This document shows positions 401 through 33,564 of a DNA stretch of 33,564 nucleotides, in pieces. Origin of the DNA: a virus. The stretch's first letter is position 1, and each line of letters begins with the position of its first letter. Location: positions 1 through 33,564 of IMG/VR virus record IMGVR_UViG_3300022542_001471; one strand, given 5' to 3'. The notes under the pieces are model-generated. The model saw nothing but the letters and a program-made list of their open reading frames with translations, ran no database searches and was not told the DNA's origin. The position numbers and the translations under genes are program-made.

Positions 401-1846
401 CTACTCTCTGCCTTCCCATGGATTTGTAACAATCAGCATTGGCTCTTCAAACGGACTTTTGAATCTTTCTTCTCCTGGAAACTGCAAAGGATTAGACGTG
501 GAATAGAATATCTCTTGTGTATCTGGAAGTGCATTTACAGCCAATAACAATGCTGATACAAAATCATCATGGCCAACATGCGTGAATGTTCCATACGTTC
601 CCATTGATCTTGATGGAGCATCTGAAGCTTCGAACCGGATGTTTTTCAACTGCCTTATCAACTTCTGACAGAAGGGGACATGAAGTTCTTTCCTCTCCAT
701 CTTCAACAACAAACCATTGATCAAACCCTCCTTTGAATTTTTCAGCCTCCTCGTGAAATCAACTCCCTTCACCCCACACAAACTATTGCTGTCCAGCAAA
801 GAGTTCCGGAGATCTTCTGTTGGCTTATCCCCAATGCCGGTCTGGTCGATGTGAACCATCTGAACCTTATACTTTCTGATCAGCTCTTCAATCCTTCCAA
901 GAACATTATGCCAATATCTTCCATCCTGCAAATACCTCACCTCTTCAAAAAAATCCACTACTATGTGATTTAAATCTGCATGTGCAATACAAACAACTGT
1001 CGCGTCTCTCCTTCTTCCAAGATCAATTCCCATCACATACTGGATTCCTTCTTTCGGTGCTGAAAGAAATGCCCTGTTGAAGTCGGTCATCTCGTCTATC
1101 AATGTCTGGGGGAATACAGAATACCTGTCATCCAAGAACTCAGCCATGTACTCTTGATCGAACTCTGCCTTAGTCAGCAACTGCTTCTCCTCATCTAGAT
1201 CTTTTTTATCCAAGAGTTTATTGTCGTAGGATGTAACTCTGTAAGACTCATAAACCTTTGAATTAAAATCTTTGTAGAAGTGATTATGCCCCAATGGTGT
1301 TGAAGCTGCTATCTCTTTTGCCCGGTTCGACAATCTGATTGGCCTTATCTGTTTCATCATCACATCTGGAATGAAAGCATCCTCATCTCTGATTAAAAGA
1401 ATCACACCTCTCCCATGCCCTCGGATAGACCTTGATGTTCTCGTTGCTGACCTCGTGAATATCTGACAACCATTGATTGTTATTTGTCTCTTCCTATCCT
1501 CTGTTATCCTCACCATCTTTTTTATTTCGGGGTGTATCAAATCCAAAACCTCACGAACTGCATCCATGAAGATATCACTCTGCTCCCATGAACCTGTAAA
1601 TGCTGCTATCTTTCCTTTCCCTTTTGCTAGTACCAATGCTGTCCAGATTGAAATGATTGCCAGCAAAGTAGTTTTTCCCCATCTCCTTCCTGCTGCTATA
1701 CAAATCCTGTTTGCCTTTGACCTCATTATCTTTGCTTCTGTTTCTGATACTGGTGGAAGATCTAGAATAACTGTTGAGAATTGAACCGGGTCCAGAAGAA
1801 TCTCTCTCAATTCTTCCTTGCTCAAGGATTTTAAATTAACAACCAT
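401..1846 (-). CDS. terL: Terminase large subunit (TerL)
   Basis: This is the DNA-packaging motor of tailed-type viruses: an N-terminal ATPase pumps DNA through the portal and a C-terminal RNase H-fold nuclease cuts the concatemer. In the 481-residue product the Walker A motif AAGRRWGKTT is at 51-60 and the hydrophobic Walker B strand ending RDEDAF is at about 148-158. A coupling motif, AASTP, follows at about 180-184. Nuclease acidic residues are seen in GIDLGRRRDA (D275, D281), VHIDQTG (D334) and HDDF (D427/D428). Length is normal for the family. ATG at 1846 is preferred over a TTG one codon upstream because a TATA box lies 21-34 bases before it. Across the circular junction the next gene is the portal. 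No small terminase is recognisable. Confidence 0.95.
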   Translation of the reverse strand: MVVNLKSLSKEELREILLDPVQFSTVILDLPPVSETEAKIMRSKANRICIAAGRRWGKTTLLAIISIWTALVLAKGKGKIAAFTGSWEQSDIFMDAVREVLDLIHPEIKKMVRITEDRKRQITINGCQIFTRSATRTSRSIRGHGRGVILLIRDEDAFIPDVMMKQIRPIRLSNRAKEIAASTPLGHNHFYKDFNSKVYESYRVTSYDNKLLDKKDLDEEKQLLTKAEFDQEYMAEFLDDRYSVFPQTLIDEMTDFNRAFLSAPKEGIQYVMGIDLGRRRDATVVCIAHADLNHIVVDFFEEVRYLQDGRYWHNVLGRIEELIRKYKVQMVHIDQTGIGDKPTEDLRNSLLDSNSLCGVKGVDFTRRLKNSKEGLINGLLLKMERKELHVPFCQKLIRQLKNIRFEASDAPSRSMGTYGTFTHVGHDDFVSALLLAVNALPDTQEIFYSTSNPLQFPGEERFKSPFEEPMLIVTNPWEGRE

Positions 1847-1866
1847 CAAAAACTGAAGTTAGAAGA

Positions 1867-2017: not shown

Positions 2018-2170
2018 TTAGCGAAGTACGGATTGTGGGCAACAACTAAGGCATAAACTCTCACTATGTGTTCCAGCAACTACACATCTAATCTTCACCC
2101 TTCCAACTTCTATAAGCTGCTTACAAATCTGACAATTGCTTTCTTTTGCTGCCTTACAAATTTCAATCAT
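2018..2170 (-). CDS. 50-residue zinc-binding miniprotein
   Basis: The product has two CxxC knuckles, CQIC at 13-16 and CLSC at 40-43, spaced as in a treble-clef or zinc-ribbon domain. H35 and C44 lie nearby. The start overlaps the stop of the upstream gene (ATGA), the junction style used throughout this genome, which supports it as a real coding sequence despite its size. It is the last gene of a three-gene operon (2642 to 2018). The role is unknown. Such miniproteins in archaeal viruses are often nucleic-acid or protein-binding regulators, which is only inference here. Confidence 0.75.
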   Translation of the reverse strand: MIEICKAAKESNCQICKQLIEVGRVKIRCVVAGTHSESLCLSCCPQSVLR

Positions 2171-2403
2171 CTCAAGCACCTCTCAAAGCATTCGAGTGAA
2201 GCTTCGTCATTACCTTCGGGATAACCAAACTCTGCACATCGATTGGCTTCTTCGACGGATTCTTTTTCTGAACAGTCCGTGTAAAGCTTAGGCCAGTTAA
2301 TCCAATCTTCTTTCTCGTCACCCTGCTTGACAGCAACCATCAGAACCACTATACAAACCAAGAGAACAACACAGACAAGGATATCAGACAATCTAAATTT
2401 CAT
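2167..2403 (-). CDS. Single-pass membrane protein with a Cys-containing outer domain
   Basis: In this 78-residue protein residues 7-25 form one strongly hydrophobic helix, after a short basic N terminus (MKFR). The remaining tail is acidic and hydrophilic with four cysteines near the C terminus (TDC, RCAEF, ECFERC). A type II anchor with a disulphide-stabilised exterior domain fits best. Overlaps of four bases at both ends tie it to its neighbours. No family was recognised. It could sit in the host envelope for entry, exclusion or egress, but nothing in the sequence decides this. Confidence 0.75.
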   Translation of the reverse strand: MKFRLSDILVCVVLLVCIVVLMVAVKQGDEKEDWINWPKLYTDCSEKESVEEANRCAEFGYPEGNDEASLECFERCLR

Positions 2404-2642
2404 TTTTCAACCAACCCCAAGACACAGAAGCCGAAACGATTTACATAATGCAAACCTTTCAAATAATATGTCTTGTTATCCTCACCGTCAACCATGGTAT
2501 AAACCTGGCCATGCACTTTTTTTGCATAAGCCAGGGCTTTTTGATAATCCTTTTTGTAGGAATCTGAATCATCAAACCTTTTGAAGACAGGAAACTTCTC
2601 GCTTTGATACATTGTTAATTCTTCAGGATAATCTTTTTCCAT
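2400..2642 (-). CDS. Small protein of unknown function, first gene of operon
   Basis: This 80-residue soluble protein is rich in Tyr, Lys and Asp (for example SDSYKKDYQKALAYAKKVHG) and has no cysteine pairs beyond one near the C terminus. The helix KKDYQKALAYAKKVHGQ followed by strand-like segments could be a small alpha-beta domain. A TATA-like box lies just upstream, and the end overlaps the next start by ATGA. The family is not recognised. Confidence 0.7.
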   Translation of the reverse strand: MEKDYPEELTMYQSEKFPVFKRFDDSDSYKKDYQKALAYAKKVHGQVYTMVDGEDNKTYYLKGLHYVNRFGFCVLGLVEK

Positions 2643-2654
2643 TTTTCAAATTCT

Positions 2655-2669
2655 CCAAATTTAATTAAG
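2655..2669. promoter_or_regulatory. Near-palindromic TATA element between a gene and the structured region
   Basis: The core AAATTTAATTAA reads almost the same on both strands. On the minus strand it is 13-27 bases before the ATG at 2642. On the plus strand it is 20-30 bases before the first bases of the structured region. It could fire in both directions. Confidence 0.45.
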
Positions 2670-2674
2670 ATACG

Positions 2675-3448
2675 CGAGGAGAAACTCCTCGATGATTGGG
2701 AGTTTCTCACGGACTTTGACCTCGCAAATCGGGGCGCAAGGTTAGAAAAATTTGCTGGTATTAAATCTCTTCTGTCACTCCTGTGGTTAGATTTAAAGCA
2801 GGAAATTTTCTTGCGGGAGAAGGCGGAACGGCGGTTTGCGAGACTATCTGTGGGAAAGGTGAAATTTTGACGGTGGCTTATGTCTGGGGTGCGTCAAAAT
2901 GAGGGAAACGGCAGTTTCCCTCGAAGCCGCGCGAAGAATCGAAGACGCGCGAAGAGGGAAGAGCGCCCCCTCGACCCGCGCCTCCCGCGTCGAGCGGAAC
3001 CTCGACGCTGGATGAGGCGCTGGCTGTCGAGCTGGGACGCGGAGGAAGAGCGCGAGAAACGTAGTGTCTCGCTGTCTTGTAAATAATTTCCGAGCTTTAG
3101 CTCGGACAAACTGACCCTGTCAGGTTTCTGCGCACCCGCAGGGGACTTTGTTCAAACAACATCATCATCGAGCGCTGGTTCTGAAATTTCCGTGCCTGTG
3201 ATGTAGGTTGGCTAGGGTTGGTCGAACAGGCTTCAAGAGGAATTTCATGAGAGGCGTCGGATGTATGGATGCTGTTGAATATGAGCCCCACGTTCTTCGA
3301 GGAGACGTCTGCGGGACTAGGCTCCGTCGAACACCGAAACACGAACACGCGGCACCAACAACTCGAATAGGTGCCGCGTCTACGGAGACCGAAAGATTTA
3401 CGTAGGCAAAAATCGTTGCGATTTTTGAATCGATAAATCTTTTCGGTC
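2675..3448 (+). ncRNA. Candidate large structured RNA (about 770 nt), no gene
   Basis: The region has clearly higher GC than its AT-rich flanks and lacks a convincing reading frame. It is packed with perfect helices: 2675-2681/2685-2691; 2721-2731/2832-2842 (one G.T); 2761-2768/2789-2796; 2864-2872/2892-2900; 2901-2909/2914-2922; 3052-3057/3067-3072; 3089-3095/3100-3106; 3111-3115/3119-3123; 3128-3132/3137-3141; 3182-3190/3239-3247; 3194-3199/3226-3231; 3322-3327/3382-3387; 3347-3356/3370-3379; 3407-3415/3419-3427. A long arm, 2963-3040, stacks three helices (CTCGAC/GTCGAG, GCGCCTC/GAGGCGC, GCGTCGAG/CTCGACGC). The stem 3387-3400/3434-3448 has 14 pairs and one bulge. At least two helices extend only if G.U pairs are allowed on the plus sense, so a plus-strand RNA opposite to all genes is slightly favoured. 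A DNA function such as an origin is the alternative. Confidence 0.6.
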
Positions 3449-3553
3449 GGAGTAGCGATGAGATTTGCTTTTACTACCAACGAATAGCGAAAGTCAGCGA
3501 CGAAAAAGAGCATTTCGGATATCGAGAAACGAGAGAGAAATAGCGTGTGATTT

Positions 3554-3856
3554 TTACTTCTTAGAAGGGGTAGAAGTTGATAGGATTTCACCTAGAGAAT
3601 CCTTCCCTTTTCCGAAGTCTTGGCTCAGTTCCTTAAGCTCGGCTCTGAGTTTCCGCTTCACGTCTAACAAGCTCGACAATAAAGAAATCTTGAATTTTAA
3701 ATCAACATCTTCAATATCATTCTCTCCCAGAAACATCGTCACTTTTTCAATTCTGGTTTGAACTCTCCTAAAAAGAGTAAACAATCTTGAAGTTGCAAAC
3801 TTTTTGTCCTTGAAGATTTTCTTGGCGTAATTGTAAGCAGTAGAATCAAGAGTCAT
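3554..3856 (-). CDS. Helical protein of unknown function
   Basis: This 100-residue basic protein is predicted helical almost throughout. A Leu-rich stretch, KISLLSSLLDVKRKLRAELK, could form a coiled coil, and the Ser/Thr/Lys tail looks disordered. No motif was recognised. It stands alone: its own TATA box is just upstream, and the structured GC-rich region begins about 100 bases downstream. Whether its transcript reads through that region is not clear; no strong T tract follows the stop. Confidence 0.6.
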   Translation of the reverse strand: MTLDSTAYNYAKKIFKDKKFATSRLFTLFRRVQTRIEKVTMFLGENDIEDVDLKFKISLLSSLLDVKRKLRAELKELSQDFGKGKDSLGEILSTSTPSKK

Positions 3857-3875
3857 ATTTTTCCTTGCTGCTTGG

Positions 3876-3885
3876 TCTTTAAATA
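3876..3885 (-). promoter_or_regulatory. TATA box for the 100-residue protein gene
   Basis: Minus-strand CTATTTAAAG lies 20-29 bases before the ATG at 3856, fitting a leaderless start. Confidence 0.6.
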
Positions 3886-3899
3886 GATTTAGGAGCTGT

Positions 3900-4110
3900 A
3901 ACTACATACCTACGAAACTATACACCTACATTTCTACATAGTATCAAAAACCAATTTTGGTGCAGATTTACACACAAAATCTCTTAAAAAACGGGTGTCT
4001 CGACGACAGAGGTAAAATAGACACCTGTATGGAGACATAGTAAACATTAATGTTAATGTAAACGTTAATAGCGTAGTACGTAGTAACGTAAATAAAGAAA
4101 CGTAGAACGA
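3900..4110. repeat. Repeat-rich intergenic region (possible operator or iteron region)
   Basis: There is no gene between 3886 and 4121. The plus strand has three similar CCTAC/TACAT-type elements in 3903-3946. It also has an inverted repeat GGTGTCT 3994-4000 / AGACACC 4019-4025, and a 12-base palindrome AACATTAATGTT at 4043-4054. Several spaced AACGTT, TACGTAG and AACGTA elements follow up to 4107. Clustered short repeats next to a winged-helix regulator gene suggest binding sites. A replication origin is also possible. Confidence 0.45.
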
Positions 4111-4121
4111 GGGGCTGAGAC

Positions 4122-4568
4122 TTAGGAATTCTTGTATTCCTTTTCTAATTTTACGACCCAGTCCACAATCTCTGGATTTTTTCCTAATTCTGTCAGAAGA
4201 AAATAATGCGTTTGTGCTGCGAAATAATTCACCTGTTTGTCAGCCATCTTTGAAGTCCAGTCCTTGAATTTTCTCAGAACAATAATCTGCTCTTTGTCAA
4301 GATTCTTCTTGTTCCATAAATCCATAACTGCAATTTGTTTTGCCAGGCCTAATTCCATCAGCTGGTACAAATGAGAATAGCAGGTTTTTCTCGAGACAAA
4401 AACTTTCTGATGAATCTCTCCAAATCTCGCACAGCTCAAAATAAGAAGCTGAGCAAATGTTTTCCTGAGTCTTGGATTTTCACTCAGGGTTTTCCTGATT
4501 CTATCAGCTCTGTACAGGCCAGTCTCGTAAGTTTTTTCAAGCTCTTTTATAGAATCATCGAAGCTCAT
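4122..4568 (-). CDS. Winged helix-turn-helix regulator
   Basis: In this 148-residue protein residues about 30-90 read as an HTH with wing: helix RLRKTFAQLLILSCARFG, turn, recognition helix VSRKTCYSHLYQLMELGLA, then a short strand pair. This resembles ArsR/MarR-like archaeal regulators. The C-terminal half is helical and may dimerise. Its start overlaps the stop of the small beta protein upstream (ATGA), so the two are co-transcribed from the promoter at 4751-4764. The repeat region directly downstream is a plausible target. No ligand-binding or metal residues are obvious. Confidence 0.65.
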   Translation of the reverse strand: MSFDDSIKELEKTYETGLYRADRIRKTLSENPRLRKTFAQLLILSCARFGEIHQKVFVSRKTCYSHLYQLMELGLAKQIAVMDLWNKKNLDKEQIIVLRKFKDWTSKMADKQVNYFAAQTHYFLLTELGKNPEIVDWVVKLEKEYKNS

Positions 4569-4732
4569 TTCTCCTCCTGGATTAGTTTAATTTCAGAAAT
4601 CCTGATAGAAACATTTCTTTTATGGACATCTACAATATCAATCCAGTCTGAAGAAATAAATTTAATAACTCCTGCGTAACTCCTTCCAGAAATAGTCTGT
4701 ACAAAAACCTTCATCCCTTTCTTGACATCCAT
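4565..4732 (-). CDS. Small beta-barrel protein, Sm/SH3-like
   Basis: The product is 55 residues from MDVKK. It consists of alternating strands: MKVFVQTI, GRSYAGVIKFI, DWIDIVDV, RNVSIRISEIKLI. The pattern G..y.G.I......wi.i.d....v.i..s.I..I resembles Sm/Lsm or related SH3-type barrels that bind RNA. An in-frame ATG 18 codons upstream is rejected because a TATA box at 4751-4764 sits 20-32 bases before this start. It is translated just before the winged-helix gene. The fold assignment is by eye only. Confidence 0.55.
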   Translation of the reverse strand: MDVKKGMKVFVQTISGRSYAGVIKFISSDWIDIVDVHKRNVSIRISEIKLIQEEK

Positions 4733-4750
4733 AGATTTAGAGAAATAAAG

Positions 4751-4764
4751 ATAATTTAAAAATG
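4751..4764. promoter_or_regulatory. TATA element of the Sm-like / winged-helix operon
   Basis: Minus-strand CATTTTTAAATTAT is 19-32 bases before the ATG at 4732. It is AT-symmetric enough to act also on the plus strand, where a 38-codon frame begins at 4792. Confidence 0.55.
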
Positions 4765-4791
4765 TTTCGGAGATACAAAATTCCACTGGAA

Positions 4792-8367: not shown

Positions 8368-8526
8368 TTATCCTACCACTTGCGTCGGAAAAATCATATC
8401 GAATGCTTCCTTTAATCCAGCAAGATATTCTAATCCTTTATCACTCAAATTCCCTCTCTCTGCTTGCCCTTCCCAGGCTTCAATTAGAAATTCAAGTTCT
8501 TTCTTTTTTACAATTTCGTTATCCAT
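8368..8526 (-). CDS. 52-residue acidic helical protein
   Basis: The frame MDNEIVKKKELEFLIEAWEG continues through NLSDKGLEYLAGLKEAFDMIF. Two helices joined by a short turn are likely. It sits between the nuclease gene and the basic miniprotein gene with no room for a separate promoter. No family recognised. Confidence 0.6.
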   Translation of the reverse strand: MDNEIVKKKELEFLIEAWEGQAERGNLSDKGLEYLAGLKEAFDMIFPTQVVG

Positions 8527-8528
8527 TA

Positions 8529-9071
8529 TTATTTATCCTGGGTAAATTCCTTGTATACAATTTGTCCCCTTTTTGTACCCTTGCTTGCGACAAGAATATT
8601 AGAAAATATATTATTCTCCAGCAGCCACCTGCACTTAGCTTTTTCTTCCTTATCGAGATAGCCCTTTGATTTTACTTCAAGCCCATAGACTTTTTTTAAT
8701 CCTGTTCCAGGCATTATTTGATTGTCTAATAAATGCATATCAATCAAATGGCATCTGTCAGTCATAATTATAAAATCAGGAAATCCCGCCCCTAACATCA
8801 TAGGTTTTCCTGGACCTAAGAACTTATTTTTTACTTTGACTAATTCTCCAACAGGATTTGGATAATGCTTTCCATCCTTTAATGTTAAATCTTTCCAAGC
8901 AACGAGAGTAAAACTTCCATCAGCATTATTTGTGTGACCAAATGCAACATTATTGCTCCACTTGTCCACGATCCAGCCTTTAGATTCTAAATCTTTTCTG
9001 ACTCGTAATTCAAAGCGAGCTCCTGCAGCTCTTGCTTTCCTGCCCTGTTTAGCTTTCTCTATATTTTTCAT
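8529..9071 (-). CDS. PD-(D/E)xK superfamily nuclease
   Basis: The product has 180 residues. The core pattern is present in order: an N-terminal helix with Glu (GARFELRVRKDLESKGW), the strand GFPDFIIM with the conserved PD, the strand YGLEVKSKG with the E-x-K pair, then helix KAKCRWLLEN. This matches small archaeal and phage PD-(D/E)xK nucleases such as VRR-NUC or Hjc-like resolvases. ATG at 9071 is chosen; a TTG at 9098 would extend it by nine residues. Its place beside a possible ssDNA-binding protein suggests recombination or genome processing. Confidence 0.7.
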   Translation of the reverse strand: MKNIEKAKQGRKARAAGARFELRVRKDLESKGWIVDKWSNNVAFGHTNNADGSFTLVAWKDLTLKDGKHYPNPVGELVKVKNKFLGPGKPMMLGAGFPDFIIMTDRCHLIDMHLLDNQIMPGTGLKKVYGLEVKSKGYLDKEEKAKCRWLLENNIFSNILVASKGTKRGQIVYKEFTQDK

Positions 9072-9099
9072 TTCAATAATTTTATAGCGGCGAGACAAT

Positions 9100-9585
9100 C
9101 TAAAACGTCAGATAATCTTTTCCGTTTTTTGCAGTCCTGGTCTGAATCACAATCCTGACCTTAGGTACGCCGGAGTACCTTCTGAATGTCTTTCCCTGGT
9201 CGTCCTTCTCTTCATGAAGCTGCGGATTCTCGACAAGATCTCTGTAATGCTTCACACCATACTTTTCCAGGAACAGACCGAAAGGACTTTTAGGTCCCCA
9301 ACCAAGATTGTGTTCCTTGTCTTCCTGAAGCCCGAAGAGACGAGTTGCACGAATTTCCCTCTTGCCTTCATCTACAGGCATGCTGAAGATCTTAACAAAA
9401 AAACCATACTGACCTTCGTGCTCTTCGACAAAAGCAATCATCGAATCCTTTCCTATGTACGGAGTTGGATCAAATTCCTGCGGTTCGATTTCTCCAGATT
9501 TGTCAAGCTTCCCGAATCCTCCAGTGCTTTGCTGCACAGGTTTTTCAGATTTGCTTGTTGCATCTGCATCAAATGTTTGCGGCAT
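9100..9585 (-). CDS. Possible OB-fold / ssDNA-binding protein
   Basis: In this 161-residue protein the first 40 residues are low-complexity. The rest is strand-rich with conserved-looking segments: MIAFVEEHEGQYGFFVKIFS, IRATRLFGLQEDKE and the ending KVRIVIQTRTAKNGKDYLTF. The terminal NGKdYltF strand is reminiscent of viral OB-fold proteins. ATG at 9585 follows an AGGAGGAAA site; the longer frame from 9654 is not favoured. The single-strand-binding role is a guess from fold pattern and from the adjacent nuclease gene. Confidence 0.6.
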   Translation of the reverse strand: MPQTFDADATSKSEKPVQQSTGGFGKLDKSGEIEPQEFDPTPYIGKDSMIAFVEEHEGQYGFFVKIFSMPVDEGKREIRATRLFGLQEDKEHNLGWGPKSPFGLFLEKYGVKHYRDLVENPQLHEEKDDQGKTFRRYSGVPKVRIVIQTRTAKNGKDYLTF

Positions 9586-9672
9586 TTTTTTGAATTTCCT
9601 CCTTTTTGAAAATAACGAAATATAATACACACTCGAACTTTCTTCCGTCGACATACCTTACATATCTTATAA

Positions 9673-9855
9673 TCATCTTCTAATTTCTCTGATTGCCTCC
9701 TCGATATCTGTTAATTTGAGTAAGATCCCTGTCAAACAAATTATTAAAAAATATTCAAAGAATCCAAACCATTTCATCCAATAGACTCCTACAAACAAGA
9801 ATAGAAAAAGAAAAATAAAATAGATTCCCTGTCTAAACGAACTTGTTATCATCAT
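9673..9855 (-). CDS. Two-helix membrane protein
   Basis: The 60-residue product has hydrophobic helices at about 10-30 (IYFIFLFLFLFVGVYWMKWF) and 33-48 (YFLIICLTGILLKL), then a charged C-terminal tail ending IREIRR. The start overlaps the upstream stop. A two-helix hairpin of this size fits small viral membrane proteins. There is no specific evidence for lysis. Confidence 0.65.
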   Translation of the reverse strand: MMITSSFRQGIYFIFLFLFLFVGVYWMKWFGFFEYFLIICLTGILLKLTDIEEAIREIRR

Positions 9856-20450: not shown

Positions 20451-21452
20451 TTACGCGTTTGTAACTGAGATCTCACAGACCCCGTATTCCAAGAGCAGCT
20501 CGACATCGTAAGCAGCGTCTACATAAATGTAGTGGTTGTTCCATCTCTTCAAGAACTCATAACTATATGTTGGCTTTTCTTTCCAAACAATTGTTATTGG
20601 CCACTGACCCTGAGCATTCTTTCCGAGCATGAAACACTGTTTACCTGTAGCTCCGAAACCAGCACCTGCAGCAATATTTGTTGTTACAATGATCTTAGTT
20701 CCGACGTACTTCCCGATTTCTCCATTGAGGATAACTTCTCTTCCACCATACTCTGCAGCATTCACGAACTGAGAATCTTTCATCAAAGCTCCTTCCTGTT
20801 CAGGATGAATAATTGTAGCTGCGGGAATATAGTTATAGTTTCTCAAGGCTTTTCTTGCATCAGCCAAAACATCAGGAGTTAATACATCGCCTGTTTCCAG
20901 AGTTGCTTTTGTCGCAGCATCACCACCAAAAACTTCGCTGCCAGAAGCAGTTGTTAATTCAGTGATAATATCATCCTCGATATCTTTCTCTGTAGCCTGG
21001 ACAATTGTATATTTAGCCTGCTCGACCAAATCAATGTGTGCAGTGCTTGCTATTTCTTTCGAGATAACAATTGCACCCATCTTGAAGGTAACTGCAGCAT
21101 CAATATAGTGAATGTTCTTCAGCTCTGTGAAAGTTCTCTCTCCACCTTCTGTGTGAGTCTGAGTAATATCTAAAACCGAAACATCCTCTACAAACAACCT
21201 GACTCCGTAATCTCTTGAACCGACGAGCTGGGTATTGTGATTACAGATATTCTGTAAATACCTGAAATCCTGACCAATCTTAGCAATGACATCAGTAAAC
21301 TGAGTCATCCTTGTCGCAGTTCCTAAGACGGTAGCCTCTGTTGTGGAAGTAGTTGCAACCTTAGTGATGTTGGTTTCTGCTCCTAGCTGGAAAACTTCTC
21401 TATCGCTTTCCTCACTTGGAATAGCACTTGATAATTCTTGTATTGTTCTCAT
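20451..21452 (-). CDS. Major capsid protein, HK97 fold
   Basis: The 333-residue product has the order typical of HK97-type shells: N-terminal helical arm, TQTHTEGGERTFTELK (E-loop region), KMGAIVISKEI, the spine helix HIDLVEQAKYTIVQATEKDI, then LTPDVLADARKALRNYNYIP, ATIIHPEQEGALMKDSQF, GEIGKYVGTKIIVTTNI. The protease/scaffold gene ends one base before its start. It lies downstream of its own promoter at 22617-22629. No decoration domain is inserted. Confidence 0.85.
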   Translation of the reverse strand: MRTIQELSSAIPSEESDREVFQLGAETNITKVATTSTTEATVLGTATRMTQFTDVIAKIGQDFRYLQNICNHNTQLVGSRDYGVRLFVEDVSVLDITQTHTEGGERTFTELKNIHYIDAAVTFKMGAIVISKEIASTAHIDLVEQAKYTIVQATEKDIEDDIITELTTASGSEVFGGDAATKATLETGDVLTPDVLADARKALRNYNYIPAATIIHPEQEGALMKDSQFVNAAEYGGREVILNGEIGKYVGTKIIVTTNIAAGAGFGATGKQCFMLGKNAQGQWPITIVWKEKPTYSYEFLKRWNNHYIYVDAAYDVELLLEYGVCEISVTNA

Positions 21453-22616: not shown

Positions 22617-22629
22617 GATATTTATACAT
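22617..22629 (-). promoter_or_regulatory. TATA box for the protease-capsid unit
   Basis: Minus-strand TGTATAAATATCA lies 21-33 bases before the ATG at 22596. Its TAA is the stop codon of the ligase gene, so promoter and stop overlap. A separate start would allow high capsid expression. Confidence 0.65.
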
Positions 22630-25600
22630 TACTCAGATTTAGCTTTTTCAGCCAATCATAAACTGTAGAATTAGGCCGGTCAAGAAAGCGGCCAATTTCC
22701 GAAACACCGACGAAGTTTTCAGATAAAAAATACACATCCCTGATTTCTTCTTCAGAAAGCGGAGAACCAAATTCACGCATTGATTTTGTCTTTGGCAGCT
22801 CTGCCTTGGAAACATTCCAGATATTACTTGCGGGATCACTTCTCTTAAAAATCCAATTACCTTTCAGCTTTTTCCCGGAGAATTTAACGTGCATAAAATT
22901 TTCAGAATCCTCGATTACATTTACAGAACCAGAATCAAGAATATCGATATGAGCAGGAATTTTCTTATTAGGATTGCCTTCTTTTCCAGGACCGATTATT
23001 CCTTCAAACATGACTTCTTCTTTTCTTCCAGATTGTTTAATGCCTGAAATTCCAGATTCAACAACTAAAGGATTCTTATTTAATTTAAACCAGGGATATT
23101 TTTCAGAATCAAATCTTACTTCAAAATGTTCAACAGGCATGCCCCTGATTACAAATTGTCCTTTCCACCATTTACGTTTCAAAGCAAATTTGGTCTCGCT
23201 TAAAGTACCTCTTCTAATTTTAGAAATAATAATGGCCTTGTGCATTTTATCAGCTTCTTCTTTTGTAGGAAAGCACTTGATAACTCTTCCATCTGAATGC
23301 GTAACGCACCATTCATTGCCTTTTTTAACAACAAATAAATCTTCAACATCAGCTTCTTCTAATCCGATTGTATTTTCTTCAAGTTTTTTCATAAATAAAA
23401 ACTTCTTCCGGATTTCCTTAATCATCTCTAAAGCTTTTGCTCCGGTCAATCCTTTCGTCCACCATCTCAATTCTTTTGGAATTTTTTCTTCCCATGATTC
23501 AGGAAGAGCGCTTCTGCCTTTTTCAGGAACATATTCTTTTCTGATTCCCCTCGACGACAAAACATAAGGTGTTTCATCTTTTGCTTTCCAGAAGAACCAG
23601 ATGAACGGGGTTCGAACCCGGGCTTCTTTCGCAATCCTTGCTCGAGATAAAACACGGACTATGTATCTCCCCTTTAGTATATTACCATTAAGGAAATATT
23701 CAAAGTACTGAGCTTTGCGAGCTCCTTCTTCATAAGTCCCTGAATCTATCTTCGTGAAAACTCCAGGAAACTTAGCGGTAGCACCAGGCTCTGGCCTTTT
23801 GCCGACTCCAGCTTCCATGCCAGACAAAGAAATTCCAGGAGCAATTCCCAACCAGACTTTTGGCTGCATTGCCTTTGTCGCGATTTCAATCTTATCCTGT
23901 AATAATTCTCCGGTCTTGAGATTGATTTTAAAGTTCTTAGCGTCTTTATCTTCTCTGGCAGCGTCTTTCAGATTCATCACAGGCTCTTTGATTTCACCCT
24001 CCACTTGATGCATCAGAGTATAGCCTTCGAGATTTCCATTCCTTTCAAATCTCAGATCAGCATGACAGGATTTTCCCCGATAATGATTCTGGAATACAAA
24101 TCTTTTTTGGAAAGATAATTTCAAGATCTTCTCCTCACCCGAGATTGAATCCCGGGCCAGGACTTCTTCCAGCTCTTCTCTAGAAACTTTAGGAACTTTC
24201 TTCACACCCATCTGGCCGGATGTTTCCTCTACAATCTTCTTTGCTGATTGAATAGAAGTGACAGGCTTGCTTGACTTGGAAATGACACGGGGCGCCCACC
24301 AATTAAACCAGGTTTTCTTAGTATCAGGATCTGTGTACTGATTCAGATCAACAAAAACAACTTCAAGCTTTTCTCCTGGAGAAACTTTAATATTTGTATT
24401 GAACGTCTTACCTACATAAGTATTGCCTTCAATTGCGCAGTTATAATAAAATGTCTTCTCAGCCTTGGCAACTCTGTGAACTGCGATGACCTTCGCAGTT
24501 ATCGATCTCTCTTTTTTGAACTTCATGAAATTGAAACTCTTTCCATCCAGTTCATAAACAAAAGTGGCCAGCTTGTAAATCGTTCCTTCAGACCCTGGAA
24601 GAGACATGAATCTCCTGGACATTCTTTTGATTGCAGGAAATCCTTTTGCAAGTCTTGCATCAGAGATCTTGACATGTGCAGACGTCTTCAGCTTCTCGAT
24701 GTCTTTCCTTCTGTCGACAAATTGGTCGGCATGGATATCCTCACCATCAAACCACAAGACATCATACAGATTAGCAACCATAAATTTTTCCTGATCAGAA
24801 TCTTTTGTATGCAGCACACCAGCAGAATCTGCCCGGTTCTGATGTTTTCCTTTTAACCACAATTCAGCTTCAAACTCAACAACAAAATCATGAGATTGTT
24901 TTGATAGCTCATCAGCAATAGTCTTGATTCTTGACGTTACATCAGACCCTTCCTCTGTCATTATAAGAACTCTTTTGCCGACTTTGTGGGCCTGGCATCG
25001 AACCCCATCAAACTTTTTCTCAATATAAATTCCTTTATCAACTTCATCTTTCCACTGCTTCAGTCTCGACATGGTCTCTTCAATAGTTTCCAGGGAATAG
25101 ATCTCTTCACGAGCTCTGCCATGGACTGGCTTTGGCTGAGTAAAGAATCTAAACGGCACAATTTTGTTTTCAGACCGCGATTTAGCAGCTTGCTCTGCCC
25201 TGCTGAACTGCATAATTTCTCCAAGATCCTCTGACATCTCAAACACTTGTTTGGTATTTACCTCGCAAATCAGCGAATACAAAGGCACGTAATTTGTGAA
25301 GGGGCCATGCAATTCATCATCATAAAGAAAGTGCAATCTCTGCCAGTATTTTTTTGGAAGCTGCCTCATAATTCTGAATTTCAAGGGAATATCTTCCCTA
25401 TCATCAACTGGCCTGGATTTCTTGATTAAAATATCGATATCACCTTTTGTCTTTCCGTGATTACATATCCCGCCGACAATATAAACAAATGGTTCTTTGA
25501 GCTTGAACTTTTCAAATTCTTTCAGAACATCTTTCAGATGAATCTCTGTACCCATCTCCTCCCCAGAATATTCAATCTTTGATAATTTTCTCTCTTTCTC

Positions 25601-25861
25601 CAGATAAGAATAATCTTCCAAGACTTCATCCTGTTCATAAAGCTCGATATTATCCAAAGTATCGATCGGTGCAATATGTTTTCCTCCAGCACGAATTAAG
25701 GCATTGGAAATTTCTTTGTGAAGATGATAGAGATCTCTAATAGTAAATTTCTTCTCTTCACCAGACAAGACTTTGCTGAAAGCAGCATGCACTTCTGTAT
25801 GAAGTTCCCCTAATTCTTCTTGAGATAACAAATCAAAATTAATTCCTTTTTTCAAGACCAT
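22622..25861 (-). CDS. Nucleotidyltransferase, ATP-dependent ligase and LigD-type phosphoesterase fusion with C-terminal HTH
   Basis: Domains of the 1079-residue protein in order. At about 110-205 there is a minimal nucleotidyltransferase-like domain (VYIVGGICN, then GDIDILI with D141, D143). At about 235-530 there is an ATP-dependent ligase with motif I EKKFDGVR (adenylated Lys about 283), motif III EFEAEL, motif IV EGTIYK and motif V FMKFKKE, plus an OB-like end. At 583-760 there is a LigD 3'-phosphoesterase-type domain (NHYRGKSCHADLRFE with H593, H600, D602, R604; LKGRYIVRV). At about 845-875 there is a short WCVTHSDGRVIKCF / TKEEADKMHKAI motif. At 905-1010 a second phosphoesterase-like lobe (HFEVRFD; LKGNWIFKR) lacks the first His. 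An HTH ends it (VGVSEIGRFLDRPNSTVYDW). It is placed between fibre and head genes. It probably repairs or joins DNA ends, possibly sealing the viral genome. Confidence 0.8.
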   Translation of the reverse strand: MVLKKGINFDLLSQEELGELHTEVHAAFSKVLSGEEKKFTIRDLYHLHKEISNALIRAGGKHIAPIDTLDNIELYEQDEVLEDYSYLEKERKLSKIEYSGEEMGTEIHLKDVLKEFEKFKLKEPFVYIVGGICNHGKTKGDIDILIKKSRPVDDREDIPLKFRIMRQLPKKYWQRLHFLYDDELHGPFTNYVPLYSLICEVNTKQVFEMSEDLGEIMQFSRAEQAAKSRSENKIVPFRFFTQPKPVHGRAREEIYSLETIEETMSRLKQWKDEVDKGIYIEKKFDGVRCQAHKVGKRVLIMTEEGSDVTSRIKTIADELSKQSHDFVVEFEAELWLKGKHQNRADSAGVLHTKDSDQEKFMVANLYDVLWFDGEDIHADQFVDRRKDIEKLKTSAHVKISDARLAKGFPAIKRMSRRFMSLPGSEGTIYKLATFVYELDGKSFNFMKFKKERSITAKVIAVHRVAKAEKTFYYNCAIEGNTYVGKTFNTNIKVSPGEKLEVVFVDLNQYTDPDTKKTWFNWWAPRVISKSSKPVTSIQSAKKIVEETSGQMGVKKVPKVSREELEEVLARDSISGEEKILKLSFQKRFVFQNHYRGKSCHADLRFERNGNLEGYTLMHQVEGEIKEPVMNLKDAAREDKDAKNFKINLKTGELLQDKIEIATKAMQPKVWLGIAPGISLSGMEAGVGKRPEPGATAKFPGVFTKIDSGTYEEGARKAQYFEYFLNGNILKGRYIVRVLSRARIAKEARVRTPFIWFFWKAKDETPYVLSSRGIRKEYVPEKGRSALPESWEEKIPKELRWWTKGLTGAKALEMIKEIRKKFLFMKKLEENTIGLEEADVEDLFVVKKGNEWCVTHSDGRVIKCFPTKEEADKMHKAIIISKIRRGTLSETKFALKRKWWKGQFVIRGMPVEHFEVRFDSEKYPWFKLNKNPLVVESGISGIKQSGRKEEVMFEGIIGPGKEGNPNKKIPAHIDILDSGSVNVIEDSENFMHVKFSGKKLKGNWIFKRSDPASNIWNVSKAELPKTKSMREFGSPLSEEEIRDVYFLSENFVGVSEIGRFLDRPNSTVYDWLKKLNLSNV

Positions 25862-29220: not shown

Positions 29221-31416
29221 TTAAGCGAATGCCTGGATCATTATTTTAATACCTGTCTGGCCACGATTAGATGTGATATTAAAAGTGTGTGAAGTCTGAT
29301 TAGCGGTATAAATAGACATCACAGCCCATGCATTACGGGCATCTGCAACTGATTCTGTTCTTGTATAAGTTGAATCTAAGACTGTTCCCCATTCATCGAT
29401 CAATGAAATAGTACATGCAAAAACTTGAGTTGTAGCTCCTTTTCCCCATATAAACAAATCATCGCCAACCTCAATTCCGCTTATAGTACAAGAAGTTGCA
29501 GAGCAATAAGTGCTGTTTCTTAAATCACCCGTCGCTGTGACTGAAGCCCAAGAGTTATCACCTCTTAGATATGTTGAGCTTGATGGAGTACCAGTAATGC
29601 CAATTTGCGTATCGAGTTCTGTTAAAGTATTCAATTCTTCTTCTGAAATATAATCTGTATCAAGATCTCCTGATGTTACACACGAAGTACACAAAGATTG
29701 CCAGTTCGCAATCGATGCTATAGCGTCATTGATCGCATCACCACCATCACACAAATCAACGCTTCCAGTTATTTCTGCACAACTCTTACAATCCCAATTA
29801 TCAGCACCTGTTTTGAAAAGTAAATCGTTATTTGAACACAAAACATTATCTGGTTTTATCTCATCAGCAAATATCAAATCATCATTGAAAGTCCCTGACG
29901 CTGCAAAAGTATGTGTTCCTGTCCATTCAAAGGTAAGACCTTCATTTAGTTCATCATCGCTGATAGAATTAGCGGGAACAGTTATTCCTGTTAAGAAAGT
30001 TGGATTAGTTGCGAAGACCCATTTGCCCGTGCCTGTTTCATCAGAAACTCTTGAAGCCCAGTTAGCAGAAGTCGTTGCATCGATATTAGAATAAATATGA
30101 TTGTGTGAATCATCATCGACAGATGGACTGGCCCATGTGCCTCCAAGATCTCCAGCAGGACTTGCTCCGCCATCGAAATTAAATGTTGTACTTACTAAAG
30201 TTATTGCATTTCCTCCAAGATAAGTTGTATCATCATCAGCTTCACAAGCCAGATTATTTCCAGAAACATATAAATGGTTTCCTGCTCCGCAAACTGTATT
30301 AAAATCAATTTTAAGTTCAGTAATTTCATCAGTACTGATCACTGTATCTAAATCTGTGCCTGTGTTCCAATAGCTTGATTGATTGCCAGTCCAATAAGGA
30401 TCGGTTTCTGTAATTGTGATTCCTGTAAGCTGACTTCCATCTCCAAAGAAATAATCTATAGTTAAATTAGAATTAGTAAAATTAAAGACATAACTTCCAG
30501 AATCAGAATCACCAGCTATGTCCCAATAAGTATTTAGATCTGTTTCAATATCTGCATCATCTACGTCGAGAATGTACTCTGGTATTATCCATTCTCCTGC
30601 TGTTACATTTGCCCAGGAAACTGCTAGAATTTCAGCATCTGTTGATGTCCAGGAAGAATTGTAAGCAGAAAAATTAGCAGACCACAAGGGTTCTGCAATA
30701 GTTGAATATAAAGTATCAGCATAAGTTTTATTGAATGTAGCAAAGGTTGAATTCCAGAATGTAAAAGGATTTGATTTAAGATAGTAGCTTGATTGATTAG
30801 CAGTCCATAAAGGATCAGATTCAATTGTGCAGCTCAAGATTCCGGTCGCGCCAGTTTTAATGAATTCGCAGCTTGTAAGAGTCGTCATTCTGAAAAAAGT
30901 TCCTGCAAGCTCGAAACCACCTGCTGCAGAGATATAAAGATCTCCATCTGTTTGTTCATAGATAGCAGATGAATTATCAAGCTGATTAATGAAATAAATT
31001 CTCGGACTTTCACCGACCCCATCATCCAGCGTGAGAGAGCCAGTCATCGTGTCCCCGGCATCTTCTACATAATCTTTTAGATCTGAAATTTGAGATTCTG
31101 TGATTGCAATTGCTGCACAAGAAAGCGTATCACCCAACGCAGAGATGTACTGGCCAGACGTGCATGTTGAAGGGTACCCTATCAAATAAGACCAGGTCAA
31201 AATTCCTTTAAGCCAGGAAGAAGTAAGATTCCCATCGATCTTTGCCGAACCAGTAATATTCAATTCACCATAATCTCCTCCGAGCCACGCTGTCGTATTT
31301 GTCAAATTTCCAAACTCCGACGGTGCACCATAAGTTGAATAGGATGCTGCAAAATGTATACAAAGTGCACCGAGCATAGCGAGTATACAAAGCAAAATAA
31401 ATATGAGTTTTTTCAT
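29221..31416 (-). CDS. Exported fibre-like protein 1
   Basis: The 731 residues start with a signal peptide, MKKLIFILLCILAMLGALCI, then a beta-rich, Asn-glycosylation-rich body. Fibre-type phrases include DAGDTMTGSLTL, FFGDGSQLTGITITETDPYW, STYLRGDNSWASVTA and GGTWASP. Segments are shared with fibre-like protein 2, showing module exchange. The C-terminal domain (TATGDLRNSTYCSATSC onward) is a compact beta domain that may bind the receptor. The start overlaps the portal stop (ATGA). Confidence 0.75.
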   Translation of the reverse strand: MKKLIFILLCILAMLGALCIHFAASYSTYGAPSEFGNLTNTTAWLGGDYGELNITGSAKIDGNLTSSWLKGILTWSYLIGYPSTCTSGQYISALGDTLSCAAIAITESQISDLKDYVEDAGDTMTGSLTLDDGVGESPRIYFINQLDNSSAIYEQTDGDLYISAAGGFELAGTFFRMTTLTSCEFIKTGATGILSCTIESDPLWTANQSSYYLKSNPFTFWNSTFATFNKTYADTLYSTIAEPLWSANFSAYNSSWTSTDAEILAVSWANVTAGEWIIPEYILDVDDADIETDLNTYWDIAGDSDSGSYVFNFTNSNLTIDYFFGDGSQLTGITITETDPYWTGNQSSYWNTGTDLDTVISTDEITELKIDFNTVCGAGNHLYVSGNNLACEADDDTTYLGGNAITLVSTTFNFDGGASPAGDLGGTWASPSVDDDSHNHIYSNIDATTSANWASRVSDETGTGKWVFATNPTFLTGITVPANSISDDELNEGLTFEWTGTHTFAASGTFNDDLIFADEIKPDNVLCSNNDLLFKTGADNWDCKSCAEITGSVDLCDGGDAINDAIASIANWQSLCTSCVTSGDLDTDYISEEELNTLTELDTQIGITGTPSSSTYLRGDNSWASVTATGDLRNSTYCSATSCTISGIEVGDDLFIWGKGATTQVFACTISLIDEWGTVLDSTYTRTESVADARNAWAVMSIYTANQTSHTFNITSNRGQTGIKIMIQAFA

Positions 31417-32981
31417 TTGATCTCTACTTCCTTGACCAGGACCTGCACTCCTTTTGGAACATCAAAGTGTTTTAATTTTTCGAACATCTCGACAATTTCA
31501 AATTCATACGCAAAGAGTTTTTTCTTGCCAGGCCACCATTCTTTTCTCTCTTCATCTGAAACCCTATGAGCATACCGAAGCTGAATAAAATCATTGACAT
31601 CGATTTCCCTCGGCTCCCTGAGTTTTATGACTCCGAAAACTTTGTCTTCAGAGAGCAGGAACATTTCTTTTCCAACATATTTCCTGAGCATCTTCATGCC
31701 TGTCTCAGATTTTATGATCTGTTTTTTATCACCTTCGTAAATCAGGTTTGCATGCGGCTGCACAAGATACAGGCCAGGAAGTTTCTTTTCTGCAAAATGC
31801 TGGAGACCTCTTTTCTCGCGACCGGATTCCTCGTGCTCCTCTTTGACAGTCGCTGGTTTGAATTCACCGAGAATTAACTCCGGGATTTCTTTAATGTGAT
31901 TTGCCTTCATCAGAGGCTCAAGGATTTCTTTTTCAAAGAATAATTTTAATTTCTCCTGGGATGGTTTTATAGAAGGCTGAATTGGTTTCTGAAGCTCAAG
32001 AGCTGAAGCACGGGAAAGTTCCCTGGCAGAGCCCATGAGAAAGAATCTTGGAAGTCCTGAGCCGGAAGTGATCATGTCTATGAAAGTGTCTGTGTAATCC
32101 GAGCCTTTGCCGATAGAAAATGCTTCCATGAGCTTGACTTTATAATTTGGGGGATGGATAAATTCAGACTTGTAATTCAGGCCTCTGACTTCTTTTGCAG
32201 CATCATCAAGCTGCGCTTTTGTTGGGGGTCTACCCTCTTGCGCTCCTGAAACAGTTATATCATAGAGAGGGAATCCGTGCCTGAAGATTGCAGAAGCAAT
32301 TCCTTCCTCGATATTCATCAACCTCCACGTGGTCTTGTAGATTGGCTCGAGCAAAGACAAGCCAAGGATTTCATCACCGATCTGATTGAACACAAGATAT
32401 TTTATGTCATCAAAAGCGTGCTCTTTTTTCTTATTCTGATTTTCCAGTTCCTCAAGCCACCCGACAGGATTTCCAGATTCATCAACCTTGACCAAGGATT
32501 TTTCTCCGTGCTGCCTGAGAAGATCCATTGAAATCGGATGAACATTTTTCAAACCGAGGTAGTTCATGTGCTTTTTATCCCAGAGCGGCTCGACAAATCC
32601 TGTACCAAAAACATCTGTAACAATCCAGAGATCTCTCAGCCACGACTTTAAGAATGTAAGGCCTCCAGAAGGATGGAGATTTTTCAACATTTCTGCAATG
32701 ACTTTTTGAGCTGCCGTGTCTTCTGTCTTAATCTCAACAGAGGGCACACCGATTGAGGAACGCAGCCTGCACATCTGGAAAAGCGTAGGATGCCTTCGAT
32801 AAATAGTATAGAGAAGCTTCTTTCCTTTCTTAGTATGGAAATCAATATCATCAAACTTGAAAGTCTCGAGTGCCTGCGCTGACAAATATGTTGCTGGTTT
32901 CTTCGGGAAGATCTTTGAGAGGAAGTTCGTGAAGCGCGCTCCGGGAGAAACAACTTTGTCAGCAGCTTTTTTTGCAGCCAT
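31413..32981 (-). CDS. Portal protein with C-terminal PUA/ASCH-like domain
   Basis: The product has 522 residues from MAAKKA. It forms the dodecameric DNA channel at one head vertex. The body matches phage portals (SWLRDLWIVTDVFGTGFVEP; VFNQIGDEILGLSLLEPIYK; wing and stem helices; SGSGLPRFFLMGSARELSRA). The last 95 residues or so (KEMFLLSEDKVFGVIKL; AHRVSDEERKEWWPGKKKLF) form a separate domain resembling ASCH/PUA-like barrels and not part of usual portals. ATG at 32981 is chosen because a TATA box lies 20-32 bases upstream; the frame starting 28 codons earlier crosses that promoter. Confidence 0.85.
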   Translation of the reverse strand: MAAKKAADKVVSPGARFTNFLSKIFPKKPATYLSAQALETFKFDDIDFHTKKGKKLLYTIYRRHPTLFQMCRLRSSIGVPSVEIKTEDTAAQKVIAEMLKNLHPSGGLTFLKSWLRDLWIVTDVFGTGFVEPLWDKKHMNYLGLKNVHPISMDLLRQHGEKSLVKVDESGNPVGWLEELENQNKKKEHAFDDIKYLVFNQIGDEILGLSLLEPIYKTTWRLMNIEEGIASAIFRHGFPLYDITVSGAQEGRPPTKAQLDDAAKEVRGLNYKSEFIHPPNYKVKLMEAFSIGKGSDYTDTFIDMITSGSGLPRFFLMGSARELSRASALELQKPIQPSIKPSQEKLKLFFEKEILEPLMKANHIKEIPELILGEFKPATVKEEHEESGREKRGLQHFAEKKLPGLYLVQPHANLIYEGDKKQIIKSETGMKMLRKYVGKEMFLLSEDKVFGVIKLREPREIDVNDFIQLRYAHRVSDEERKEWWPGKKKLFAYEFEIVEMFEKLKHFDVPKGVQVLVKEVEIK

Positions 32982-32999
32982 GCCTTTTAGAAAATGCCT

Positions 33000-33013
33000 G
33001 ATATATAAATATT
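33000..33013 (-). promoter_or_regulatory. TATA box of the portal promoter
   Basis: Minus-strand AATATTTATATATC ends 19 bases before ATG 32981. No Shine-Dalgarno site is needed if the message is leaderless. Confidence 0.7.
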
Positions 33014-33084
33014 TTGTGGTTCGGTTTTCAAATTCAAATCGGTGCGCGAGGTCACCAGGAATCATTATATAGACCCCCTAAAAC

Positions 33085-33340
33085 CTGTTTTCTATACGAT
33101 TGTACTATACAACTGTACAATTATCCAACTATACAACTGTTACAATTATTACAACAATGCAACTGTACAACTGTTACAACTGTTACAATAATACAATTGT
33201 ACTCTACAACTGTACAACTGTACAACTGTACAATTATTACAACTATTACAATTATTACAACTATTACAATTATTACAACTATACAACAATTGCAATTGCA
33301 TTACAACTATATAACTACTGCAACTGTACAATTATATGTA
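33085..33340. repeat. Expanded AT-rich 9-bp tandem repeat tract
   Basis: The tract is built from TACAAYTRT-like units. Six perfect alternating units (TACAATTAT / TACAACTAT) run from 33229 to 33282, with degenerate copies on both sides. It lies between terminase and portal genes on the circular map, where packaging sites often sit. No protein gene is credible here. Confidence 0.8.
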
Positions 33341-33502
33341 CCTATGGATATGTACCTATACAAATGGTCTCTTCTACTCTGCTTCTCTCTCCTTCTTACG
33401 AACATATTTCCTTTTCATCTTCGCTCTTTTCTTTCCTTTATTTACAGCCATCTTAATATTTATCCTTTTAAGCAGCACCCTCAACATCTTCTCTGCTTCG
33501 AT

Positions 33503-33564
33503 CTACTCTCTGCCTTCCCATGTATTTGTAACAATCAGCATTGGCTCTTCAAACGGACTTTTGA
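33503..33564 (-). CDS. terL: Terminase large subunit, C-terminal fragment at contig edge
   Basis: This is the last 20 codons and stop of the terminase gene in its second, diverged copy. The residue before WEGRE is Thr here and Pro in the complete gene, so the two ends differ at protein level. Confidence 0.85.
   Translation of the reverse strand, partial: KSPFEEPMLIVTNTWEGRE

Follow-up and report, generated by a model that had tools for sequence, protein, structure and literature searches.

A strongly folded, non-coding gap that keeps its position in four related viruses

What is the largest gene-free block of a virus whose likely genes all lie on one strand, and does it work as RNA, as DNA or not at all? 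The virus record IMGVR_UViG_3300022542_001471 (33,564 bases, analysed whole and called the window here) carries its likely genes on the minus strand and has such a block at 2643-3553. A first-pass annotation had pointed to a gene-free, GC-rich block in an AT-rich genome and proposed a single RNA of about 770 nt at 2675-3448, antisense to all genes and akin to the large phage RNAs GOLLD and ROOL. We find that the gap is a real, strongly structured, non-coding region whose position is conserved in four viruses. It probably represents an uncatalogued kind of structured RNA region, and we tentatively read it, with a probability of about 0.42, as a rapidly evolving leader or intercistronic RNA on the gene-sense strand.

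2643-3553, minus strand (the presumed gene-sense strand): structured non-coding gap of 911 nt, between the genes at 3554-3856 (minus) and 2400-2642 (minus)

The gap has a GC content of 0.51-0.54 against about 0.39 for the window, as the first-pass annotation had described. The open reading frames (ORFs) of the gap score as non-coding in codon use (log-likelihood per codon −0.11 to −0.64, where 21 genes of the virus give +0.05 to +0.30), Pfam and PHROG return nothing for the 164-aa ORF, and the gap is not protein-coding. When the interval 2675-3448 was folded against 60 dinucleotide-preserving shuffles per strand, the control proposed at the outset, fold z-scores were −7.45 (plus) and −9.80 (minus); the entire gap gave −6.98 and −5.06 (20 shuffles each). 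The window contains 21 perfect stems of 8 bp or more (loops of up to 25), and seven of them fall inside 2679-3427, a stretch that makes up about 2% of its length. With about 11 such stems in a shuffled sequence of full window length, chance would put about 0.3 there. A sliding fold scan identified a single structured cluster in the window. The gap thus folds beyond chance.

Three relatives were collected by means of terminase alignments. Scans of viral contigs with single proteins (terminase, ligase) found no relatives, so that alignments were needed, and a portal alignment with default patterns found none either.

L007 (IMGVR_UViG_3300033149_007507): terminase 52-53% identical; gap 2091-2581, 491 nt
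L110: terminase 66-67% identical; gap 1338-2498, 1161 nt
L146 (IMGVR_UViG_3300037247_001698): terminase 55% identical; gap 8525-8842, 318 nt

All four viruses share one gene order: a gene of 94-100 aa (38-46% identical to the window's 3554-3856 in the relatives) precedes the gap, whose GC is raised, and a small membrane-protein gene and then the terminase come after it; in the window the 80-aa gene 2400-2642 stands between the gap and the membrane-protein gene. The relatives' gaps are richer in GC than their own genomes and fold well, with z-scores of −8.6 and −7.1 in L007, −3.9 and −6.4 in L146, and about −4 to −5.5 for the halves of the L110 gap. BLASTN of the window gap against the L007 and L110 gaps found no similarity, despite terminase identities of up to 67%, and none against phages; the L146 gap was compared with it by eye only. 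The best translated match of the gap (E 0.056 across 12 residues) is unconvincing. Given the shared order, raised GC and z-scores on the one hand and the absent alignment on the other, position, composition and foldability are kept across the four viruses, whereas sequence and size vary. Of the first-pass proposal, a large structured non-coding element stands; a single RNA of 770 nt is unproven, the relatives' region spanning 318-1161 nt and being unalignable. We rejected a general feature of the host as the explanation, as sampled contigs of the metagenome-assembled genome (MAG) that holds L110 have no such hairpin clusters.

Evidence that helices are kept comes from L007, in which a diverged structured element occurs four times, at paralogous loci A-D that are all read in the gene-sense direction.

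L116 5375-5730, gene-sense: copy A
L116 7246-7676, gene-sense: copy B
L116 8319-8612, gene-sense: copy C, the syntenic gap
L116 3721-3819, gene-sense: copy D

Copies A and B align at 60%. When the fold of A is mapped onto B, 32 canonical pairs prove to be double-changed, where the control has 11, and 0 of 500 trials reach that number; the compensations are interspersed along the helices, not gathered in one block. The internal loops of A and C are near-identical while the stem changes. A covariance model built from A-C (R1) retrieved copy D with an E-value of 2.7e-7 over 86 kb. Across the four copies 13 of 26 pairs are changed on both sides, as are 13 of 35 pairs of the long arm in copies A-C (0/500 shuffles reach the observed value in either case), or 26/61 combined. 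Sliding the partners by 1-3 columns reduces the double-changed counts to 0-6. These counts are to be read knowing that structures and alignments were fitted to the same sequences and to only three or four paralogues, of which copy D is the independent part. Within that frame, the covariation indicates helices kept in L007 by compensatory change.

The same element suggests a function. The long arm of copies A, B and C includes, on its 3′ strand, the start (ATG) and first codons of a small ORF.

L007 5482-5637: small ORF of 51 codons
L007 3611-3760: small ORF of 49 codons
L007 2538-2585: small ORF of 15 codons

The three ORFs are related, with ERG near each end. Those of A and B encode similar proteins with synonymous codon differences, which argues that this strand is read as mRNA; since the long arm also holds the ATG, a structured leader hiding a start codon is the simplest reading for L007. 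The GAAAGGGGG of two of the ORFs is a likely ribosome site for the next gene, giving the appearance of repeated structure-plus-small-gene modules. Integron-like attC sites were considered for the repeats and set aside, because the consensus did not match when inspected by eye; no integrase was searched for.

Which strand is used in the window is harder to settle from pairing. Wobble pairs flanked by shared pairs number 0 on the plus and 1 on the minus strand, and a looser stem count gives 5 versus 6, so that the G.U pairs earlier taken to favour the plus strand do not do so. The counts disagree across viruses (L007 points to sense, L110 to antisense and the window to neither), and we rejected strand calling by wobbles on that account. 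The L007 helices show 7 GU versus 2 AC in the sense direction, in a model that was built on the gene-sense strand and hence leans that way. The antisense orientation also fails to find support elsewhere: the minus strand has the better z-score on 2675-3448, and three L007 copies embed a start codon in the gene-sense direction. Taken together, neither fold scores nor wobbles single out a strand. T-tracts are the archaeal termination signal. In the window, L110, L007 (copy C) and L146 the small gene is followed by the gap with no T-tract in between, whereas other genes of L007, L110 and L146 do end in T-tracts; the gap thus plausibly lies within a gene-sense transcript.

On this basis we propose that the gap would be transcribed in the gene-sense direction as part of a longer transcript, at the point where the replication genes give way to the packaging and structural operon, and that the RNA would serve there as leader or intercistronic segment. 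The transcript may fold co-transcriptionally into many stable arms, and these arms may control translation or stability of the downstream small membrane-protein and late genes. We infer the gene-sense transcription, the regulatory role and the extension from L007 to the window's unalignable region, the last because the window's next start codon lies outside a helix. Several findings weigh against this proposal. Both strands fold almost equally well, and the L110 wobble counts lean to the opposite strand. Covariation is shown in L007 alone, the window's region having no alignable homologue, and the next gene has its start codon outside any helix both in the window and in L110. Copy D, with a T-tract on one side and a TATA-like box on the other, is not the leader of that ORF. 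Finally, unconserved sequence and size are unusual for a regulator with fixed binding sites.

The individual stems and arms of the window gap come from the stem search and the folds, and include the three-tier arm and the bulged stem named in the first-pass annotation.

2679-2708: 10-bp hairpin GAGAAACTCC/GGAGTTTCTC at the region's 3′ end in gene-sense orientation, with an overlapping 7-bp alternative CGAGGAG/CTCCTCG (stem search, fold)
2761-2796: 8-bp perfect stem, loop of 20 nt (stem search)
2864-2900: 9-bp perfect stem, loop of 19 nt (stem search)
2901-2922: 9-bp hairpin GAGGGAAAC-GGCA-GTTTCCCTC (stem search)
2963-3040: three-tier arm, innermost 8-bp hairpin at 2987-3008 (fold, stem search)
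3090-3106: hairpin CCGAGC-TTTA-GCTCGG (sequence, folds)
3347-3379: 10-bp hairpin ACGCGGCACC/GGTGCCGCGT (stem search)
3387-3448: bulged stem of about 14 bp around a 9-bp hairpin at 3407-3427 (folds, stem search)

The hairpin at 2987-3008 contains a 12-mer (GAGCGGAACCTC) that is shared with copy A of L007 and, but for one change, with copy B; such a 12-mer shared between the window and L007 (GAGCGGMACCTC) is suggestive only. The L007 covariance model gave a weak palindromic match at 3378-3437 (minus), with an E-value of 0.013 on the gap alone and 1.2 overall, and we did not accept homology.

The recognisable genes of the window and those beside the gap are as follows.

401-1849, minus strand: terminase large subunit, used for finding the relatives
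2167-2403, minus strand: small one-pass membrane protein; the relatives have membrane proteins at the equivalent place after the gap
2400-2642, minus strand: 80-aa gene bordering the gap, between it and the membrane-protein gene
3554-3856, minus strand: conserved gene (94-100 aa) adjoining the gap in all four viruses, a predicted two-helix hairpin with a disordered tail
20451-21452: major capsid protein
31413-33065: portal

The closest annotated capsid is that of an Altiarchaeum virus (29.6%), and the closest terminase (66%) is on contig L110, which has been assigned, though not securely, to a MAG of an archaeon of about 0.5 Mb. These two matches make an archaeal host likely, perhaps a DPANN-like one. 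The proposal of a structured element in an archaeal virus fares well in part: the virus is probably archaeal, and compensatory changes are found in the L007 gap and three other loci; membership in GOLLD or ROOL is not supported. The 3554-3856 protein is predicted as a two-helix hairpin with a predicted local distance difference test score (pLDDT) of 76, and we dropped it as a candidate small terminase subunit after a fold search without a specific match. Further upstream in the gene-sense direction, 4565-4786 (minus) encodes a 73-aa protein with a weak resemblance to Sm/Hfq: the cyanobacterial Hfq 3hfo is found by sequence at E 0.24 and is also the best fold match (E 0.067, model pLDDT 58). 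An RNA-binding protein close to a structured RNA region would be telling, weak as this resemblance is. The window also encodes a 1079-aa protein (22622-25861, minus) with an ATP-dependent DNA ligase domain and long unassigned extensions, unusual in a small virus, and a weakly RusA-like resolvase candidate.

A different gap, between terminase and portal, holds a motif close to AGGGGGTCTATATAATGATTCCTGGTGACCTCGCGCACC in three of the viruses (window 33040-33078, minus; L110 4815-4855, plus; L007 9477-9515, plus); it was not found in L146. The motif occupies one place per genome, with a second copy in the window near 77-137, in the end repeat, and its surroundings are unconserved. It is a candidate packaging (pac/cos) site or late promoter. 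Beside it stand AT-rich tandem arrays of 8-9-nt units (window 33104-33336, TACAACTAT-like; L110 4707-4796, TAATCATAC ten times); the array at the window's other end is much shorter. The record ends, 1-462 and 32964-33564, repeat each other at only 94-95%, and the start copy has an extra GGTTCCGGGTTCGAAACCCGG resembling a tRNA T-arm; this may reflect what is left of an attachment site or the mixing of two strains. L146 has a second gap (9068-9763, fold z −4.2) with repeated, iteron-like motifs of the GGGGNACC type, such as AGGGTACCTAAAAT twice.

Could the gap instead encode an independent, trans-acting large RNA, on either strand, acting as a free particle or scaffold like GOLLD or ROOL? Its size and helix density fit, as do its GC-rich composition in an AT-rich genome and its standing as the window's single cluster. 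GOLLD and ROOL are expressed RNAs that form a homo-oligomeric cage, and they are often found near tRNA genes. The window has no tRNA, and Rfam at gathering score gave no match for the window, L110, L116 or L117; lowering the threshold to E 5 over 2400-4200 returned nine chance-level matches, none of them GOLLD, ROOL or OLE. By the tests run, the gap is not a GOLLD or ROOL member, contrary to the kinship first suggested. GOLLD moreover keeps a universally conserved 3′ region (PMC12286853), whereas the four viruses share neither sequence nor size. The L007 element is repeated and overlaps start codons, and neither z-scores nor wobbles offer evidence for the plus strand. We therefore consider a free RNA unlikely.

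A cis element acting at the DNA level (a replication origin, or a packaging or recombination site, with hairpins forming in single-stranded or supercoiled DNA) seems to us no likelier. It would suit a region with replication proteins on one side and the terminase on the other in L110, L146 and L007, whose stems are nearly perfect Watson-Crick on both strands, in a virus with a resolvase candidate. Yet four copies in L007 would be odd for a single origin or pac site, and long arms that enclose 100-250 nt make poor cruciforms. A packaging role in particular loses ground to the terminase-portal gap, where the motif shared by three viruses keeps its sequence and makes a better pac/cos candidate than a gap whose sequence is not kept. 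We had considered scarce wobbles as proof of a DNA element and dropped this as indecisive after checking against rRNA and tRNA; one-sided changes make up a similar share in tRNA stems (0.13) and here (0.08), so their scarcity does not decide the matter. That the hairpins are mutational by-products of template switching or inverted duplication, in a dispensable and functionless spacer, strikes us as improbable. The long, near-perfect palindromes with mostly two-sided changes and the lack of sequence conservation even at 67% terminase identity would be expected of such by-products, but the position is kept in four viruses, whose genomes are compact, the long-arm compensations in L007 are not block-wise, the loops of A and C stay nearly identical as the stem changes, and the sampled contigs of L110's MAG are free of such clusters.

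The gene-sense leader or intercistronic RNA remains the reading we favour. A more sweeping version, which we regard as rather doubtful, is that in this lineage, probably infecting DPANN-like archaea, a large functional RNA occupies a fixed site while its sequence and architecture are replaced from virus to virus, position and structure persisting; it would be an archaeal counterpart of the ornate phage RNAs, evolving very rapidly, possibly in an arms race. Archaeal viruses have so far yielded few structured RNAs, and almost nothing has been learned about how viruses of the smallest archaea control their genes. A region that keeps position and foldability while its sequence turns over would be invisible to ordinary homology searches, which suggests discovery of structured RNAs by synteny and folding. 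The L007 repeat is a new covarying family, concrete enough to model, search for and probe.

Among known systems, GOLLD is often over 800 nt and many-armed (PMC12286853), and the window gap is likewise a large, many-armed non-coding element of a viral genome, differing in the missing Rfam match and tRNA. ROOL is comparable as a large ornate RNA of phages and prophages; here there is no Rfam match, no tRNA island and no sequence kept among the four viruses. Cis-regulatory mRNA leaders resemble the L007 copies, which pair the start and first codons in a covarying stem, although this likeness comes from L007 and not from the window, the length is far above that of usual leaders, and no known ligand or protein family is involved. 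The candidate RNAs of Weinberg and others 2010 (PMC2864571) differ in that Rfam includes many of those families and matches nothing here; they are alike in being intergenic, with covarying helices, and viral or archaeal.
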